Shown piece after piece: positions 4,821-34,616 of a stretch of 36,265 bases of DNA. The stretch is from contig PCYI01000021.1 of NCBI GenBank assembly GCA_002774795.1, forward strand, positions 350-36,614, written 5' to 3'. The stretch is from Candidatus Vogelbacteria bacterium CG10_big_fil_rev_8_21_14_0_10_51_16. GTDB lineage: Bacteria; Patescibacteriota; Minisyncoccia; Phycocordibacterales; JACRKE01. Under the pieces are notes generated by a model. The model worked only from the letters and a program-made list of their open reading frames with translations, ran no database searches and was not told the origin of the DNA. The first letter of the stretch is position 1, and each line of letters begins with the position of its first letter. Made by a program: the position numbers and the translations under genes.

Positions 4821-5024
4821 CTTGTTTAAGCACGAAGCACAAAATCTGAAGCTCCGACGTTTCACCAAGGGCGAAGGTAGGGGTCCCGACCGCAAGCGTC
4901 GGGACACAAACAAATCAGAAGTACTAAGTCCTAAATATCCAAACATGTTTCATTTCTAATTTTTCTACTTTGAATTTAATGCTTGTTTCGTGCTTCAGAT
5001 TTCGTGCTTCGTGCTTTGTGCTCA
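4821..5024. repeat. Inverted pair of CGAAGCAC-rich repeats
   Basis: The block at 4970-5024 contains TTTCGTGCTTCAGATTTCG followed by more CGTGCTT units. A partial inverted copy (AGCACGAAGCACAAAATCTG) lies at 4829-4848. The same family occurs at 21028-21079 (inverted) and 21110-21171 (direct, with about 33 identical bases). The gap 4734-5062 also holds a GTCCCGAC/GTCGGGAC hairpin near 4877-4899 and no gene that I can support. Confidence 0.6.
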
Positions 5025-7545: not shown

Positions 7546-9195
7546 CTATGCACCCATGTCAAGATGCGTTAAAGCGAAGGCGGAGTTTACTTCCGTTTTT
7601 TTGCCCGGGTTAAATATGTCAAAGGGGTCGAAAATCTTTTTTACCTCCTTGAAAAGCCCAAAGATGCGCTCGCCGTACATTTGCTCAAGGTAGGGGCCGC
7701 GAATAAGGCCGTCGTTGTGCTCACCCGACATAGAGCCTTTGTATCTAAAGACTAGCGCGTACACTTCAGCTCCGAGTTTTTTTATAATCTCTACGCTCTT
7801 GGGGTCGCTCATATCCATAAGGGGGATAATATGGAAGTTGCCCCCGCCAATGTGTCCCGCAATGGTGTAGGTGATGGGGTAGCGCTCCATAATGGCATAG
7901 AGTTGGGGCAAAAACTTCGGCAGAAGGTCGGGGCGCACCACAATGTCGTCTATAAACGGAGCTGTGCGCTTGCCCCGCACATGGTGGCGGAGCATATTGA
8001 AGCTCTCGCGCCGCACCGTCCAGTATTTTTTATTCTCGGCCTCGCTCGCTGTTACCTTAGTGCGCAGATCGAACGGCTTGAGGGCGGCCTCCGCTTTGTG
8101 GGCTTGCGCCTCCGCCTCTTCGTCGGACTCCGCCGTGAACTCGGCCATTAGTACCAGCTTGGGAGCACCGCCACGCAAGGCCATGAGAAGCTCTGGCAAG
8201 AAACTCCAGGCCATCCTGACCATCCCCAGCCCCATCTGCTTGGCGAGCTGTGGCAAAAAACGAAGGGCGATGTTAAAGGTGTGGTCGTCGTACGACTCAA
8301 AGCTCTCTGGCCGGTGAGCGAGCACGGCCTCATCAATCTCGCCGAGCCGCGCCATGTCGTTTAAAAATATTACAAGTAGGCGGGCATGGGGCTTGGGTCG
8401 CACAAGCCCAAGAGTGATTTCGGTGATAATGCCGAGCGTCCCTTGGGAGCCGACGATAAGTTGGGTGGGGTCAAAGAGGCCCCGCTCACGGTTGTAGACA
8501 TTCCAAAGGGCGTAGCCGGAGGAGTTCTTACCCACCTGAGGCTTTGCTAGTTTTAACTCCTCTTCATGGTCAAAAACTAATTTTGAAAGCTTACGATACA
8601 AGTCACCCTCTACCGAATGAAGTCGCTTCTTCGCCTCGAGCGCGGCAAGGGTCAGAGGCTTAAACTCATACTCCTCGCCGTCTTCGAGGACCATCTTCAC
8701 CGCTCGCACATAACGCTCCGTCTTGCCGTAAGAAAGCGACTTCTCGCCTCCGGCATTGTTGGCCACGATGCCCCCTAAGGCACATAGCTCGCGCGAAGCC
8801 GGGTAGCTCGGAAAGATGAGATTGTGTTTGAGGGTCTCGCGCTCAAAATCGCGGTAATACATGCCTGGCTCCACGACCGCGTAGTCGGGGCCGATCTCTC
8901 GCAAATGGTTCATGTGGCGTGTGAAAACCATTACAATCGAAGTCGAAAGTGGCCCACCTGACATGTCAGTACCGGCAGCCCGGGCGGTGAGCGAAATATG
9001 TCGACCCGCTTCCCGCTCTTTGCGTACAAACTTGACCAAGTGTTTAACATCATCCACGTCGCGTGGAAAGACCACCACTTGTGGACACACCCGAAACAAA
9101 CTTGCATCTCGGCTGTAGGTTTCTAAGGTGGCCTCATCGGCCATCACCTCCCCACGCACGACCATCTGCAACTGTTGAGCAAGCGTCATCATCAT
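7546..9195 (-). CDS. FAD-linked oxidase, GlcD/D-lactate dehydrogenase type
   Basis: The 549-aa flavoenzyme has an N-terminal FAD-binding PCMH domain (residues about 35-250: VVVFPRDVDDVKHLV, ARAAGTDMSGG, VEPGMYYRDF, GGIVANNAGGEKSLSYGKT, GSQGTLGIITEITL). A C-terminal FAD-oxidase domain follows, with the metal-binding and active-site strings GHIGGGNFHI and SGEHNDGLIRG, and the typical end FDPFDIFNPGKK. No Cys-rich CCG/Fe-S domain follows, so it is the short form. It should oxidise a 2-hydroxy acid such as D-lactate or glycolate; the acceptor is unknown. TATACT with exactly 6 nt to the first of three ATGs (9193-9195) fixes the start and predicts a leaderless message. Confidence 0.85.
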   Translation of the reverse strand: MMMTLAQQLQMVVRGEVMADEATLETYSRDASLFRVCPQVVVFPRDVDDVKHLVKFVRKEREAGRHISLTARAAGTDMSGGPLSTSIVMVFTRHMNHLREIGPDYAVVEPGMYYRDFERETLKHNLIFPSYPASRELCALGGIVANNAGGEKSLSYGKTERYVRAVKMVLEDGEEYEFKPLTLAALEAKKRLHSVEGDLYRKLSKLVFDHEEELKLAKPQVGKNSSGYALWNVYNRERGLFDPTQLIVGSQGTLGIITEITLGLVRPKPHARLLVIFLNDMARLGEIDEAVLAHRPESFESYDDHTFNIALRFLPQLAKQMGLGMVRMAWSFLPELLMALRGGAPKLVLMAEFTAESDEEAEAQAHKAEAALKPFDLRTKVTASEAENKKYWTVRRESFNMLRHHVRGKRTAPFIDDIVVRPDLLPKFLPQLYAIMERYPITYTIAGHIGGGNFHIIPLMDMSDPKSVEIIKKLGAEVYALVFRYKGSMSGEHNDGLIRGPYLEQMYGERIFGLFKEVKKIFDPFDIFNPGKKTEVNSAFALTHLDMGA

Positions 9196-9309: not shown

Positions 9310-9465
9310 CCCCCACATCCCCAGCCACTTAGTGACTGGGGATGTGGGGTGGGAGTGTGGTCTTATCTATAACCGACCAAGCACTAGCGCTGTAAAAAAA
9401 GAAAAGGCCCGCCGCGTTCACGCTACGGCGGACCTTTCGGGTCGGCAGAGCGGTCGCGGGGGCCT
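9310..9465. repeat. Copy 1 of a 156-bp module: palindrome plus terminator
   Basis: This is almost identical to 10218-10374; I count a two-base difference near 9377 and a one-base length difference. It contains a 39-nt near-perfect palindrome (9311-9349, core AGTGACTGGGGATG) and a minus-strand terminator (9394-9437). It sits just downstream of the gene at 9470-10030. Confidence 0.85.
9394..9437 (-). terminator. Rho-independent terminator after the 9470 gene
   Basis: On the minus strand AAGGTCCGCCG pairs with CGGCGGGCCTT around a TAGCGTGAACG-type loop, followed by TTCTTTTTTT. Confidence 0.8.
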
Positions 9466-10211: not shown

Positions 10212-10217
10212 CTACAC

Positions 10218-10374
10218 CCCCACATCCCCAGCCACTTAGTGACTGGGGATGTGGGGTGGGAGTGTGGTCTTATCTATAACCGAGAAAGCACTAGCGCTGT
10301 AAAAAAAGAAAAGGCCCGCCGCGTTCACGCTACGGCGGACCTTTCGGGTCGGCAGAGCGGTCGCGGGGGGCCTG
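10218..10374. repeat. Copy 2 of the 156-bp module: palindrome plus terminator
   Basis: This is the near-identical partner of 9310-9465, with its palindrome at 10219-10257. It sits just downstream of the 34-aa gene at 10382, the same relative position as copy 1, and ends the second transcription unit. Confidence 0.85.
10301..10344 (-). terminator. Rho-independent terminator after the 34-aa gene
   Basis: Same hairpin and T-run as at 9394-9437, on the minus strand. Confidence 0.8.
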
Positions 10375-11276: not shown

Positions 11277-11313
11277 CCCATATCCCCAGTCACTAAGTGA
11301 CTGGGGATATGGG
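11277..11313. repeat. Perfect 18-bp palindrome, same family as in truB
   Basis: CCCATATCCCCAGTCACT, one central A, then its exact reverse complement. It shares the AGTCACT-A-AGTGACT core with 9311-9349, 10219-10257 and 33743-33777. It lies 8 nt beyond the stop of the FAD reductase gene, where it could also act as an mRNA 3' hairpin. Confidence 0.8.
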
Positions 11314-11320
11314 TCTACTT

Positions 11321-12760
11321 TCAGCGTGAGCGTCTAAGTGGTTTTTGTTGTCTTAAGCCAAGTCTCCACCTTGGGCGTATCGCCTTAAGGAAACCGGCTT
11401 TAACCGTGGATACATACCGTTCACGTACCACCACTTTTTCATAGAAGTCCAAGAAGGCAGCCGCACGATATACTGCTCGCAATTGCTCGTAGAGGGTTTT
11501 TGGATAACTGTGCCAGAATTCGCCCTCCGGTGCATAAAGATGAGCGTACAATATCTTTCTTCCGTTAAGCCGTGTGGTCAATCGTTCCATCACTCGATTT
11601 ACCTGCACGAACTCTCGATATGCAAGCGCGAGCGGACCCCAGATGCCGACGTTCATGACCCTGCCGGCGCCAATATTCGTCGGGGAGAACGGGTGTACCG
11701 CATCAGTCCGCAACAGGCAAAGCCATAAGGGATAGATACCGAGGTGCTCGTGGGTATGCTCTAGGAGTGCGGTGGTGCGTTCAAGTGGCACGCTGATATC
11801 TTGGACAAAATACTCCTGCGCCGTACCCGTCTCGTGAAGCGCTTGGTAGAACGTCCGAGTGTTCATGATCGGGTTCAAGATAAATCGTGTCAGGCGATTG
11901 AATGGCACGCGGAAGCGATCGAAGGCATACTTCCCGACAAAGAACGCGCCACGGTCGTACCGGAAAAGGTAGTCAATGAGCGGCACCACCTCCTCGCGGA
12001 TCACTCCCGCCCGGCTTATCGTATCGGCGTGCAGCGAAAACCACTCATCATGGGCCCGACAAAAGCGTGCCAAGGGAAGACCGCCGGTTTCGTGACAGCG
12101 CGTACCGAGCATGATGACCCCACGGTCTCTTGCGAAAAGTAGTCCACCAATGAAGTCGACCCCGACGTTGTCCCAATGCTTCTCGGTGACGGCGACCGCT
12201 TCCGAGAAGCTTGCTACCGGGAGGTAGCGAAGTCTGACGTAACGAGTCGCAGGGATCAACCGCAGGCGGATTGCGGTGATTACACCAAGGCTTCCGCAGG
12301 AACCAGGGATTGCGCGAAAAAGATCGGTGTGGCTGCTGGGAGAGGCGGTGACCAGAGCGCCGTCGCCAAGCAGAACGTCGTAGCTCTCACACAATTCATG
12401 GACAAGGCCATGCCGATACGAGCTGCTCTCGCCCGCCCCGCCTGCAATTGCGCCACCCAAGGTGATGTTCGGAAACTCGGGAACGACCGCGGGGACAAGA
12501 CCACGCCTGCCTGTCTCGTACACCAGCTGCTCCATGGTAACTCCCGGCTCAACGAGAGCCGTGTTGCTACCGGGGTCAATCTCGAGCACGTGGGTAAGGG
12601 TTGAGGTATCAATGCTCCGATCCTTGTCAAATCGCTGGGTCCGCGTGCTGTTCGTACTGCCATGGTAGATGCGGACGCCACGAACACCAGCATGATTCAG
12701 GAGACGAAGCTGGTCCTGAAGCACTGCGACTCGTTTTTTGTGCTCGGCACTATTACTCAT
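11321..12760 (-). CDS. FAD-binding reductase of the DHCR24 (delta-24 sterol reductase) family
   Basis: The 479-aa protein opens with a PCMH-type FAD domain and reads remarkably like eukaryotic DHCR24/Diminuto: VEPGVTMEQLV, TLGGAIAGGAGESSSYRHGLVHE, DVLLGDGALVTASPSSHTDLFRAIPGSCGSLGVITAIRLRLIPA is the order of its segments. Later matches are VVPLIDYLFRYDRGAFF, IYPLWLC and ILYAHLYAPEGEFW. Such enzymes reduce an isolated carbon-carbon double bond with NADPH via FAD. No sterol pathway is visible. The gene starts 24 nt after the cfa-like gene on the same strand. In actinobacteria a similar pair (TmsB/TmsA, also called BfaB/BfaA) makes 10-methyl fatty acids. I infer that it reduces a methylene-lipid intermediate here. 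Confidence 0.75.
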   Translation of the reverse strand: MSNSAEHKKRVAVLQDQLRLLNHAGVRGVRIYHGSTNSTRTQRFDKDRSIDTSTLTHVLEIDPGSNTALVEPGVTMEQLVYETGRRGLVPAVVPEFPNITLGGAIAGGAGESSSYRHGLVHELCESYDVLLGDGALVTASPSSHTDLFRAIPGSCGSLGVITAIRLRLIPATRYVRLRYLPVASFSEAVAVTEKHWDNVGVDFIGGLLFARDRGVIMLGTRCHETGGLPLARFCRAHDEWFSLHADTISRAGVIREEVVPLIDYLFRYDRGAFFVGKYAFDRFRVPFNRLTRFILNPIMNTRTFYQALHETGTAQEYFVQDISVPLERTTALLEHTHEHLGIYPLWLCLLRTDAVHPFSPTNIGAGRVMNVGIWGPLALAYREFVQVNRVMERLTTRLNGRKILYAHLYAPEGEFWHSYPKTLYEQLRAVYRAAAFLDFYEKVVVRERYVSTVKAGFLKAIRPRWRLGLRQQKPLRRSR

Positions 12761-12784
12761 TGCGGGATGATTAGGTTATTCCGT

Positions 12785-14074
12785 TCACCGCACTGTCTCG
12801 TATCCCCCCTCCACCCCATTCGGCGAGAGGACGATTTGCCAGAGCTGGATACTGCGGGCGCGGAAAGCGCCGGCGCAAGCAAGCAGGTAGTAGCGCCACA
12901 TGCGGTGGAAGCGGTCGTCATAGCTGGCAGTCGGGTTCAATCCCACCCCTCCCACCCCACCCCAGCCCTCCTCTCGGGCAGGGGAGGGGGCATACACCCT
13001 GGCCCCAGCACCAGAGCAGAGCTCAGTGCGGGGCACAGCAGGAGAGGGGGTTAAGCCTACGCCCCGCTTACACCACCACCGCTCAAAGTTTTTATGCCAG
13101 GCAATGAGCGTAGTGTTGTAGTCGGGGCCGAAGTTGTGCCAGTCTTCGAGGACGAACAGACCCTCGAGGGCGCGGACCGTCTTTGAGCTTTGAGGAATCA
13201 TGCCGTTTGGAAAAATGTACTTGGTAATCCACGGGTCCACGCCAGAGGTGCGATGGTTATGGCCGATGGTTTGTAGAACAAAGAGTCCTTCCGGCTTGAG
13301 CATCTTTCTGACAACATCGAAGTAGGTGCGGTAGTTTTTGTGGCCGACGTGCTCAAACATGCCGAGCGAAACGATGTGGTCGTATTCACCTTTAACGTCT
13401 CGGTAGTCTTGTAGACGAAACTCGACCTTGTCGGCCACACCAGCCTCGTGCGCTCGCTCTTCGGCGAGCACCACCTGCTCCTTTGAGACGGTCACTCCTG
13501 TGACGCGCACGCCGTACTTCTCGGCAACATAAATGGCAAAGCTTCCCCAGCCGCAACCGATGTCGAGGATGTGTAATGGTTCGCCGTCCTCACTCCGCGT
13601 CCGTTTATCGAGCCCAAGCTTACGGCAGACCAAGTCGAGTTTTGCTTCCTGGGCGGAGTCTAGGTTTTCTGGGACACGCTCGAGATCTTTCCAATAAGCG
13701 CAGGTGTAGGTCATGCGGTGGTCGAGCATGGCCTCGTACAAGTCGTTGCCGATGTCGTAATGCTTCTCTCCCACCTCAAACGCTTTCCCCCTCCGCTGTT
13801 GGTTGGTAAGGCGGGAAAGAAGGTAGGTAAAGAGCGGGGCAATACCGACAATACGACTGTCGAGTTTGGCGCGGAGGATGCGGGCAATCATGTCGTCAAG
13901 CGCCTCACACTCCCACCAGCCGTCCATGTATGCCTCCCCGAGACCGAGCGAACCCCGCGCAAGCAAGCGACGGTAAAGCCGTTCGTCGTGTACTTTAATA
14001 TCAAAAGGACGGGCGCCATTAATTTCAATACCAGCTCCCTCCAAATGCTTCTTTATAATTTCTTTTGCATTCAT
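12785..14074 (-). CDS. cfa: Cyclopropane-fatty-acid-synthase-like methyltransferase with repeat-derived insert
   Basis: The 429-aa protein follows E. coli Cfa closely: N-terminal lipid-binding part (GLGEAYMDGWWE), YDIGNDLYEAMLDHRMTYTCAYW with the conserved Cys, SAM motif LDIGCGWGSFA, FEHVG with the conserved Glu, DPWITKYIFPNG and DWHNFGPDYNTTL. Two oddities stand out. The position of E. coli His266 (LLHTIG), which I recall as a bicarbonate ligand, is Gln (VLQTIG). Residues about 336-380 (KRGVGLTPSP to GGVGLNP) have no counterpart and are encoded by a CT-rich palindromic repeat. ATG 14074 is preferred over a TTG 11 codons upstream. The substrate would be unsaturated acyl chains of phospholipids, probably scavenged, with SAM as methyl donor. 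Confidence 0.85.
   Translation of the reverse strand: MNAKEIIKKHLEGAGIEINGARPFDIKVHDERLYRRLLARGSLGLGEAYMDGWWECEALDDMIARILRAKLDSRIVGIAPLFTYLLSRLTNQQRRGKAFEVGEKHYDIGNDLYEAMLDHRMTYTCAYWKDLERVPENLDSAQEAKLDLVCRKLGLDKRTRSEDGEPLHILDIGCGWGSFAIYVAEKYGVRVTGVTVSKEQVVLAEERAHEAGVADKVEFRLQDYRDVKGEYDHIVSLGMFEHVGHKNYRTYFDVVRKMLKPEGLFVLQTIGHNHRTSGVDPWITKYIFPNGMIPQSSKTVRALEGLFVLEDWHNFGPDYNTTLIAWHKNFERWWCKRGVGLTPSPAVPRTELCSGAGARVYAPSPAREEGWGGVGGVGLNPTASYDDRFHRMWRYYLLACAGAFRARSIQLWQIVLSPNGVEGGYETVR
12935..13069. repeat. Repeat element inside the cfa reading frame (135 bp)
   Basis: The plus strand reads CCCTCCTCTC-GGGCA-GGGGAGGGGG, then a nested GCCCC-A-GCAC/GTGC-GGGGC hairpin, then AGGAGAGGGGGTTAA. It is a palindrome within a palindrome and encodes 45 in-frame residues. 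Similar CT-rich palindromes are at 15366-15388 and 9266-9292. Confidence 0.75.
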
Positions 14075-14242
14075 TTTGCATTCATAAGGTTTATCATACA
14101 ATACCAATACAATACCAAACTGACTGGGTAGTTGAAAGTCGAGCCTCCAAGTCAGAAAGATGCACCGGACACATCAAGAGCCCGGAAGCTCTCGATGTCT
14201 ACCGTGACTTTTTGGTCAGGGTAGAATGTCGAGCATACGGGC

Positions 14243-20535: not shown

Positions 20536-21244
20536 AGTATTTTGTATTTAGTCGTTATTAGGGCTGACAAAATTCGACCCCGACGCAAACAACTTCGCCC
20601 AACCTATTTAGGCAGACAAAGTCTCTGTGGCAGAAAAATCACACAACAGAGACAAAAGAGAGCGACGGTTTTTGAAGTATAGCATACTCAGACCGCTAAG
20701 CCAAATTGAAGACTTTCTGGATGGACCAAAAACCGCGGAGTCTTACATTGACTCCCATAAATGGACACACTTCGAGAGATAACATGCCAACTTAATACAC
20801 TTTTTTAGCCGCAAAACTCAAGGCAACAAAGAATGGTCGCGCTTGCGCTTTTGGCTTATCTATTGGCAAACTCCCTGTTGAGCTTTTTTTGTTTATGCGT
20901 TGTCGTTAAAATTAAAATCCGTCTTCGAAACGGATATTACAAACTAGAAAAGATAACCTGAGACTGTAGAAAGAGTAGGCACCCTCCATTTGAGAGAAGT
21001 AGGAGGAGACGTGCTACAAAAACACCACAAAAGCACGAAATCATAAAACTAAAGCACGAAACAAGCACTAAATTCAAGGCTCTAAGATTAGAAACAGAAT
21101 TAGTTTAGATATTTATGATTTTGTGCTTAGAATTTGTTTCGTGCTTCAGATTTCGTGCTTCGTGCTTTATCTGGAGTTCTGTACTCTGAAGTCTGGACTC
21201 TGCCTCCTTCCAGTGGTCATTTCTCTACAGTTTCAAAATACACT
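20536..21244. other. Gene-poor stretch with hairpins and repeats
   Basis: I find no credible reading frame. Present are a GTCTCTGT/ACAGAGAC hairpin (20621-20654), a GGAGTC/GACTCC hairpin near 20741-20760, an ATCCGT/ACGGAT hairpin near 20918-20936, several T-runs, and the inverted CGAAGCAC repeats at 21028-21171. An uncharacterised structured RNA is possible but not shown. Confidence 0.4.
21028..21171. repeat. Inverted pair of CGAAGCAC-type repeats
   Basis: The right half (21110-21171) shares about 33 identical bases with 4983-5015. The left half (21028-21079) is in inverted orientation and matches the extended 4970-5024 block, including the AAATTCAA end. The pair could fold into one long imperfect hairpin. 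The sortase ORF extends through it in frame, but the real ATG is later. Confidence 0.65.
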
Positions 21245-34152: not shown

Positions 34153-34297
34153 ACTTTGAATTACGAAACTCGTAAAATTACCGTCATTGCGAGGGCTTTA
34201 GTCCGAAGCAATCCAGGAACCGCGACTTATTTTCTGGATTGCCACGGGCTTACGCCCTCGCAATGACGACAGTGAGTAGAGTTTCGTAACTCAAAGT
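34153..34297. repeat. 145-bp imperfect inverted-repeat element (MITE-like)
   Basis: The outer arms ACTTTGAATTACGAAACTC and GAGTTTCGTAACTCAAAGT pair. The inner arms CGTCATTGCGAGGGC and GCCCTCGCAATGACG pair. A GAAGCAATCCAGG/CTGGATTGCC pair lies between. Inner sequences of the type CGTCATTGCGAGG..GAAGCAATCC are widespread in bacterial genomes. It sits 20 nt after the truB stop. Confidence 0.85.
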
Positions 34298-34376: not shown

Positions 34377-34447
34377 TGCCAGATCGTCTAATGGTAGGAC
34401 ACATGCCTCTGGAGCATGTTATCTAGGTTCGAATCCTAGTCTGGCAA
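34377..34447 (+). tRNA. tRNA-Gln (anticodon CTG)
   Basis: The 7-bp acceptor TGCCAGA/TCTGGCA, D arm GTCT/GGAC, anticodon stem CATGC/GCATG with loop CTCTGGA (anticodon CTG), and T arm CTAGG/CCTAG with loop TTCGAAT all fold well. CCA is not encoded. The acceptor strand and following bases (34440-34451) also pair perfectly with 34465-34476. Confidence 0.9.
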
Positions 34448-34616
34448 CAAACAAGCGAAGCAGTTTTGTTGCCAGAAGAAAGGCGACTGATCGCCTTTAG
34501 TCTAGGATTCGAACGCCGGAGCTTATGACCATCAGCAGAGGTTGCGCGAGGCGGTGCCCAGCTCGAGGCGAGCGACGGCGAAACGAGAGGCGAGGGAGAA
34601 ACTCCTAGTCTGGCAA
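34435..34616. repeat. Partial copies of the tRNA-Gln 3' end downstream of the gene
   Basis: CCTAGTCTGGCAA at 34435-34447 (in the tRNA) is repeated directly at 34604-34616. An inverted piece, AGTCTAGGATTCGAAC, is at 34499-34514. Hairpins lie at 34440-34476 (12-bp stem) and 34479-34498 (AAAGGCGA/TCGCCTTT). This looks like the trace of integration or duplication at the tRNA. I see no gene in 34448-34872. Confidence 0.6.

Follow-up and report, generated by a model that had tools for sequence, protein, structure and literature searches.

Two adjoining genes of a Candidatus Vogelbacteria genome encode an Escherichia coli-type cyclopropane synthase (Cfa) and a FAD oxidoreductase that is related to the lipid reductase BfaA and lies outside its clade. 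In the reading that we favor, at a rough probability of 50%, the two proteins are expressed together, the FAD protein is a C=C reductase of the DHCR24 type, and each works on a different double bond of borrowed lipids. The window, that is, the whole stretch of DNA analysed (36,265 nt), carries the following features of the pair:

12785-14074, minus strand: cfa gene, 429 aa, with its ATG at 14074
13271-13273, minus strand: Gln codon of residue 268, at the position of E. coli His266 (from alignments; coordinates computed from the ORF start at 14074)
12926-13069, minus strand: 48-codon in-frame insert in cfa (approximately aa 336-383), a copy of a GC-rich interspersed repeat
12761-12784, minus strand: 24-nt gap between the cfa stop and the start of the FAD gene, both genes being on the same strand
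11321-12760, minus strand: FAD oxidoreductase gene, 479 aa, of a DHCR24-like clade outside the BfaA clade, with a clade-specific C-terminal extension
11277-11313, strand unassigned: near-perfect palindrome of 37 nt that lies 8 nt beyond the stop of the FAD gene; the window has three copies

The contig of the gene pair is contig 29 of a 959-kb genome that is 98% complete (G000). An earlier note on this DNA had described a Cfa-type and a FAD gene side by side, and its coordinates, strand and spacing were all correct. The cfa ORF is likewise in frame with a TTG at 14107. The palindrome downstream of the FAD gene folds far better than its shuffles (z -9) and possibly marks the end of the transcript, and a promoter scan gave a result no better than shuffles. 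We infer that cfa and the FAD gene are co-transcribed.

Several further elements were noted in the window. The other two near-perfect 37-nt palindromes (9311-9348 and 10219-10256) sit inside a 153-nt duplication (9310-9462 and 10217-10369). A 110-nt inverted repeat occupies positions 4908-5017 and 21030-21139, with 16 kb between its copies. A pair of 67-nt inverted repeats (34153-34297) comes just before the window's single tRNA gene, which is for Gln (34377-34448). Near cfa, positions 7546-9195 encode a glycolate oxidase/YdiJ-like FAD protein, and such a protein (56% identity) is also found near Cfa, in a different order, on an Uhrbacteria contig (L029:2029-3654).

By profile, tree and fold, the window Cfa is an E. 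coli-type cyclopropane synthase. It matched NCBIfam PRK11705 (cyclopropane fatty acyl phospholipid synthase) with 541 bits at a curated equivalog cut-off of 400, and in a tree of 49 rows it fell within the E. coli-type clade (100/98) and not in the BfaB clade, close to unpaired Cfas from its own order and away from the paired enzymes of actinobacteria and Variovorax. Within this order, another genome (G021) has a Cfa identical to the one in a Ca. Yonathbacteria record, which upholds the assignment to CPR. The predicted structure (pLDDT 88) showed the two-domain fold with the N-terminal lipid-binding domain and had E. coli Cfa (6bqc) as its best PDB match, with a TM-score of 0.95 on the target. 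Equivalents of Cys139, Glu239, Ile268 and Tyr317 (E. coli numbering) are present in the alignment, and the product of the enzyme is presumably a cyclopropane.

For the FAD protein, Pfam recognised the FAD-binding domain only (FAD_binding_4, 66.6 bits), and structural matches to DprE1 and cytokinin dehydrogenase (TM about 0.6-0.7) indicated a VAO/PCMH-type FAD domain. A sequence search of the PDB matched the N-terminal FAD domain only, with no DHCR24 entry among the matches listed. Full-length matches were FAD oxidoreductases of actinobacteria and Variovorax at 27-31% identity, with homologues in records of Tsukamurella, Nocardia, Nonomuraea, Prescottella and Variovorax. Sequence searches returned no viral relatives, and viral structural matches were discarded as generic FAD oxidases. 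A sequence presumed to be human DHCR24 shared approximately 29% identity with the window protein over 458 residues (182 bits); in a tree including it, this presumed DHCR24 grouped with the clade of the window protein, clade B below, and not with BfaA. The kinship with DHCR24 suggested by this presumed sequence is a lead, and the open-access literature, which leaves out most subscription papers, held no paper joining DHCR24 with bacterial FAD-binding oxidoreductase terms. The earlier note had named the protein a DHCR24-family reductase; its place in a wider BfaA/DHCR24-like group stands, with the DHCR24 likeness drawn from the presumed sequence, and it is not a member of the BfaA clade.

In the genome of the window, at 98% completeness, we found no ketoacyl synthase, CDP-alcohol phosphotransferase or fatty-acid desaturase family. 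Because these are missing, a scavenged unsaturated lipid is the likely substrate, in line with the earlier suggestion that a cell without fatty acid synthesis remodels acquired lipids. It also agrees with reports that CPR bacteria obtain lipids from other cells and have no complete lipid synthesis of their own (PMC7242380). A literature search for Patescibacteria and cyclopropane, with open-access coverage that leaves most subscription papers outside, gave matches that seem incidental. In the favored reading, Cfa would bind a scavenged phospholipid and SAM and, by methylene addition, turn a double bond already present in an acyl chain into a cyclopropane, as in its family. The DHCR24-type flavin enzyme would reduce a different lipid C=C (acyl or isoprenoid), with NAD(P)H as its probable reductant. 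The two steps would be parallel rather than consecutive, and both would remove double bonds. Reduction of a C=C by the FAD protein is supported by its full-length relationship to BfaA, a lipid C=C reductase (PMC5660069, PMC7791843), and by the presumed DHCR24 kinship; the protein is a putative reductase, and its lipid substrate is conjectural. If true, this cell would edit a borrowed membrane, not build its own.

The position of the FAD protein in its family separates it from the known pairs. Clade B comprises the window protein and proteins of six other genomes (G744, G417, G479, G034, G343 and G919; support 100/99), and it stands outside the BfaA clade (100/99); forcing the window protein into the latter cost 33 log-likelihood units (AU p 0.015), so that orthology with BfaA was rejected by both tree and test. 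Clade B carries the motif DYLFRYDRGAFF where BfaA has the segment DYLWRWDTDWFWC, and its proteins have a C-terminal extension. A Cfa-type methyltransferase adjoins all 11 BfaA-clade proteins and none of the six clade-B genes other than that of the window. Among CPR members, this adjacency held for 6/6 of the BfaA clade versus 0/6 of clade B without the window (Fisher p 0.002, with rows that are not independent). No Cfa was found anywhere in G417, G343, G479 and G919, all at least 90% complete, and G744 has one Cfa, far from its clade-B gene. Since the other members never adjoin Cfa and four of them occur in genomes without it, clade B needs no Cfa product. The neighbours of clade-B genes vary, with glycolysis genes in G417 and G343, pilus genes in G744 and replication genes in G479. 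In two genomes of one genus the clade-B gene lies, for no obvious reason, between the phosphoglycerate kinase and enolase genes (L125:5802-10400 and L126:5848-11600).

These data bear on an alternative in which the two genes are neighbours by chance, both functional in unrelated roles, a clade-B gene having landed beside a patchily distributed cfa. The missing adjacency and differing neighbourhoods of the other clade-B genes are what it would predict, as is the presence of Cfa in only 8 of the 60 genomes of the order. However, the genes of the window share a strand, are 24 nt apart and are followed by one palindrome after the FAD stop, and both families act on lipid double bonds; we consider a chance arrangement unlikely.

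A second alternative is the methyl-branch pathway put forward in the earlier note on the model of TmsA/TmsB: a Cfa altered at Gln268 would stop at an exo-methylene intermediate, and the FAD enzyme would reduce this to a methyl branch, in the manner of the actinobacterial BfaB and BfaA. Each of the actinobacterial and Variovorax homologues of the FAD protein adjoins a methyltransferase of the Cfa family, and in Tsukamurella the pair has recR and the gene for DNA polymerase III gamma/tau next to it. These look like the bfaA/bfaB pairs of PMC5660069 and PMC7791843. We found bfaAB-like pairs in six CPR genomes, with an E. coli-type Cfa in G117, G159 and G350 and a divergent methyltransferase in G225, G228 and G277. 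The BfaA-clade FAD and methyltransferase pairs of CPR lie at:

L127:5727-8240, L128:6043-8521 and L133:5065-7534
L129:5160-7834, L130:5320-7885 and L131:501-3093

The combination of an E. coli-type Cfa with a BfaA-clade protein, seen in three of the six CPR pairs, is absent from the actinobacterial loci read here. Because three CPR genomes make this combination, a Cfa of the E. coli type can probably supply a reductase with its substrate. This speaks for a methyl-branch pathway and against parallel steps, as does the tight same-strand adjacency in the window, which is that of the sister clade with sequential enzymes (11/11). The relationship of the FAD protein to BfaA and the direct adjacency in methyltransferase-FAD order, as in L127, L128, L133 and Variovorax, are also in its favor.

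The phylogenies of both proteins, with the FAD protein outside the BfaA clade and Cfa in the E. coli-type clade, count against this pathway, as do the clade-B mates that are unlinked to Cfa or live without it. A further objection comes from the active site. The bicarbonate ligands of E. coli Cfa are Glu239, His266 and Tyr317 (PMC11387697), and the set is incomplete in the window Cfa, which keeps Glu and Tyr and has Gln for His, confirming by alignment the substitution noticed earlier. However, all 11 FAD-paired enzymes, BfaB-type included, keep the His equivalent, and Gln was found in five of 105 aligned enzymes, namely the window Cfa and four Cfas without a FAD neighbour. Because these four also have Gln, the Cfa family is itself variable at this position. 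The proposal that Gln shifts ring closure to methylene formation was therefore rejected, as the residue does not track FAD pairing; Gln268 could still alter deprotonation, a point against the favored reading.

The residues just before Glu239 separate paired from unpaired enzymes more clearly. Of 93 unpaired Cfas, 86 keep a Met-Phe pair, and all 11 FAD-paired enzymes have lost it (p = 1e-10, with relatedness ignored and the pattern found by scanning alignment columns); the latter include two lineages that branch separately within the E. coli-type Cfas. The window Cfa keeps Met-Phe (residues 239-240) in a canonical GMFEHVG motif, that is, the signature of unpaired Cfas. Met-Phe thus appears to be a better marker of reductase pairing than Gln268, as judged from a column scan that ignores kinship, and is possibly a switch between cyclopropane and methylene products. 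Taking both sides together, we regard a BfaA/BfaB-like pathway in the window as rather improbable. In a variant of it, CPR would have built a methyl-branching route of their own for phospholipids taken from a host, combining a Cfa of the E. coli type whose bicarbonate site has changed with a reductase of the DHCR24 type that replaces BfaA; this appears about as improbable.

The earlier note had the family type of Cfa and its Gln right and overlooked the 48-residue in-frame insert, which is without counterpart in any relative of the 105-enzyme alignment. Its repeat occurs in approximately 25 copies in the genome and was missing from all 20 relatives searched, including the member of the same family. 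In the Cfa model, residues 355-382 are disordered and form a surface loop between two intact helices. Further in-frame copies, read in different frames and strands, were found in a histidine kinase (HATPase_c), a cysteine desulfurase with two or more insertions, a GNAT protein and surface proteins of this genome, at the following loci besides cfa:

L192, L194, L198, L189 and L201, on contigs 25, 4, 14, 13 and 8 of G000

Because the same repeat lies in frame inside other conserved genes, the insert alone is no sign of gene death. That Cfa is decaying or inactive, its bicarbonate ligand lost and a repeat inserted, so that the adjacency means nothing enzymatically, would fit Gln268 and the insert but is very unlikely given the open reading frame, the other catalytic residues kept, the insert modelled as a surface loop that leaves both flanking helices intact, the in-frame copies in the desulfurase and kinase, and the recurrence of Gln in other intact Cfas. 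The repeat resembles the Rickettsia palindromic elements, with in-frame copies in conserved genes, and a brief literature search found no description of such an in-frame repeat in CPR.

The nearest known systems each differ from the pair. Compared with E. coli Cfa (PDB 6bqc), the window Cfa has Gln for the bicarbonate ligand His266 and the repeat-derived insert before the last long helix. Compared with DHCR24 (delta-24 sterol reductase), the FAD protein lacks the N-terminal stretch, the alignment starting at residue 67 of the presumed DHCR24. The 10-methylpalmitate genes TmpB/TmpA likewise combine a Cfa-type methyltransferase with a putative reductase, but TmpA is similar to geranylgeranyl reductases and shares no homology with BfaA (PMC7791843). 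BfaA/BfaB (TmsA/TmsB), which serve 10-methyl branched fatty acids in actinobacteria, resemble the window pair in that a methyltransferase of the Cfa family adjoins a FAD oxidoreductase homologous over its full length, with 24 nt between the two genes in the window. In contrast to them, the window FAD protein belongs to another clade with its own motif and C-terminal extension, the Cfa is of the E. coli type with Met-Phe unchanged, and the methyltransferase gene precedes the FAD gene, whereas the actinobacterial loci read here have the FAD gene first.
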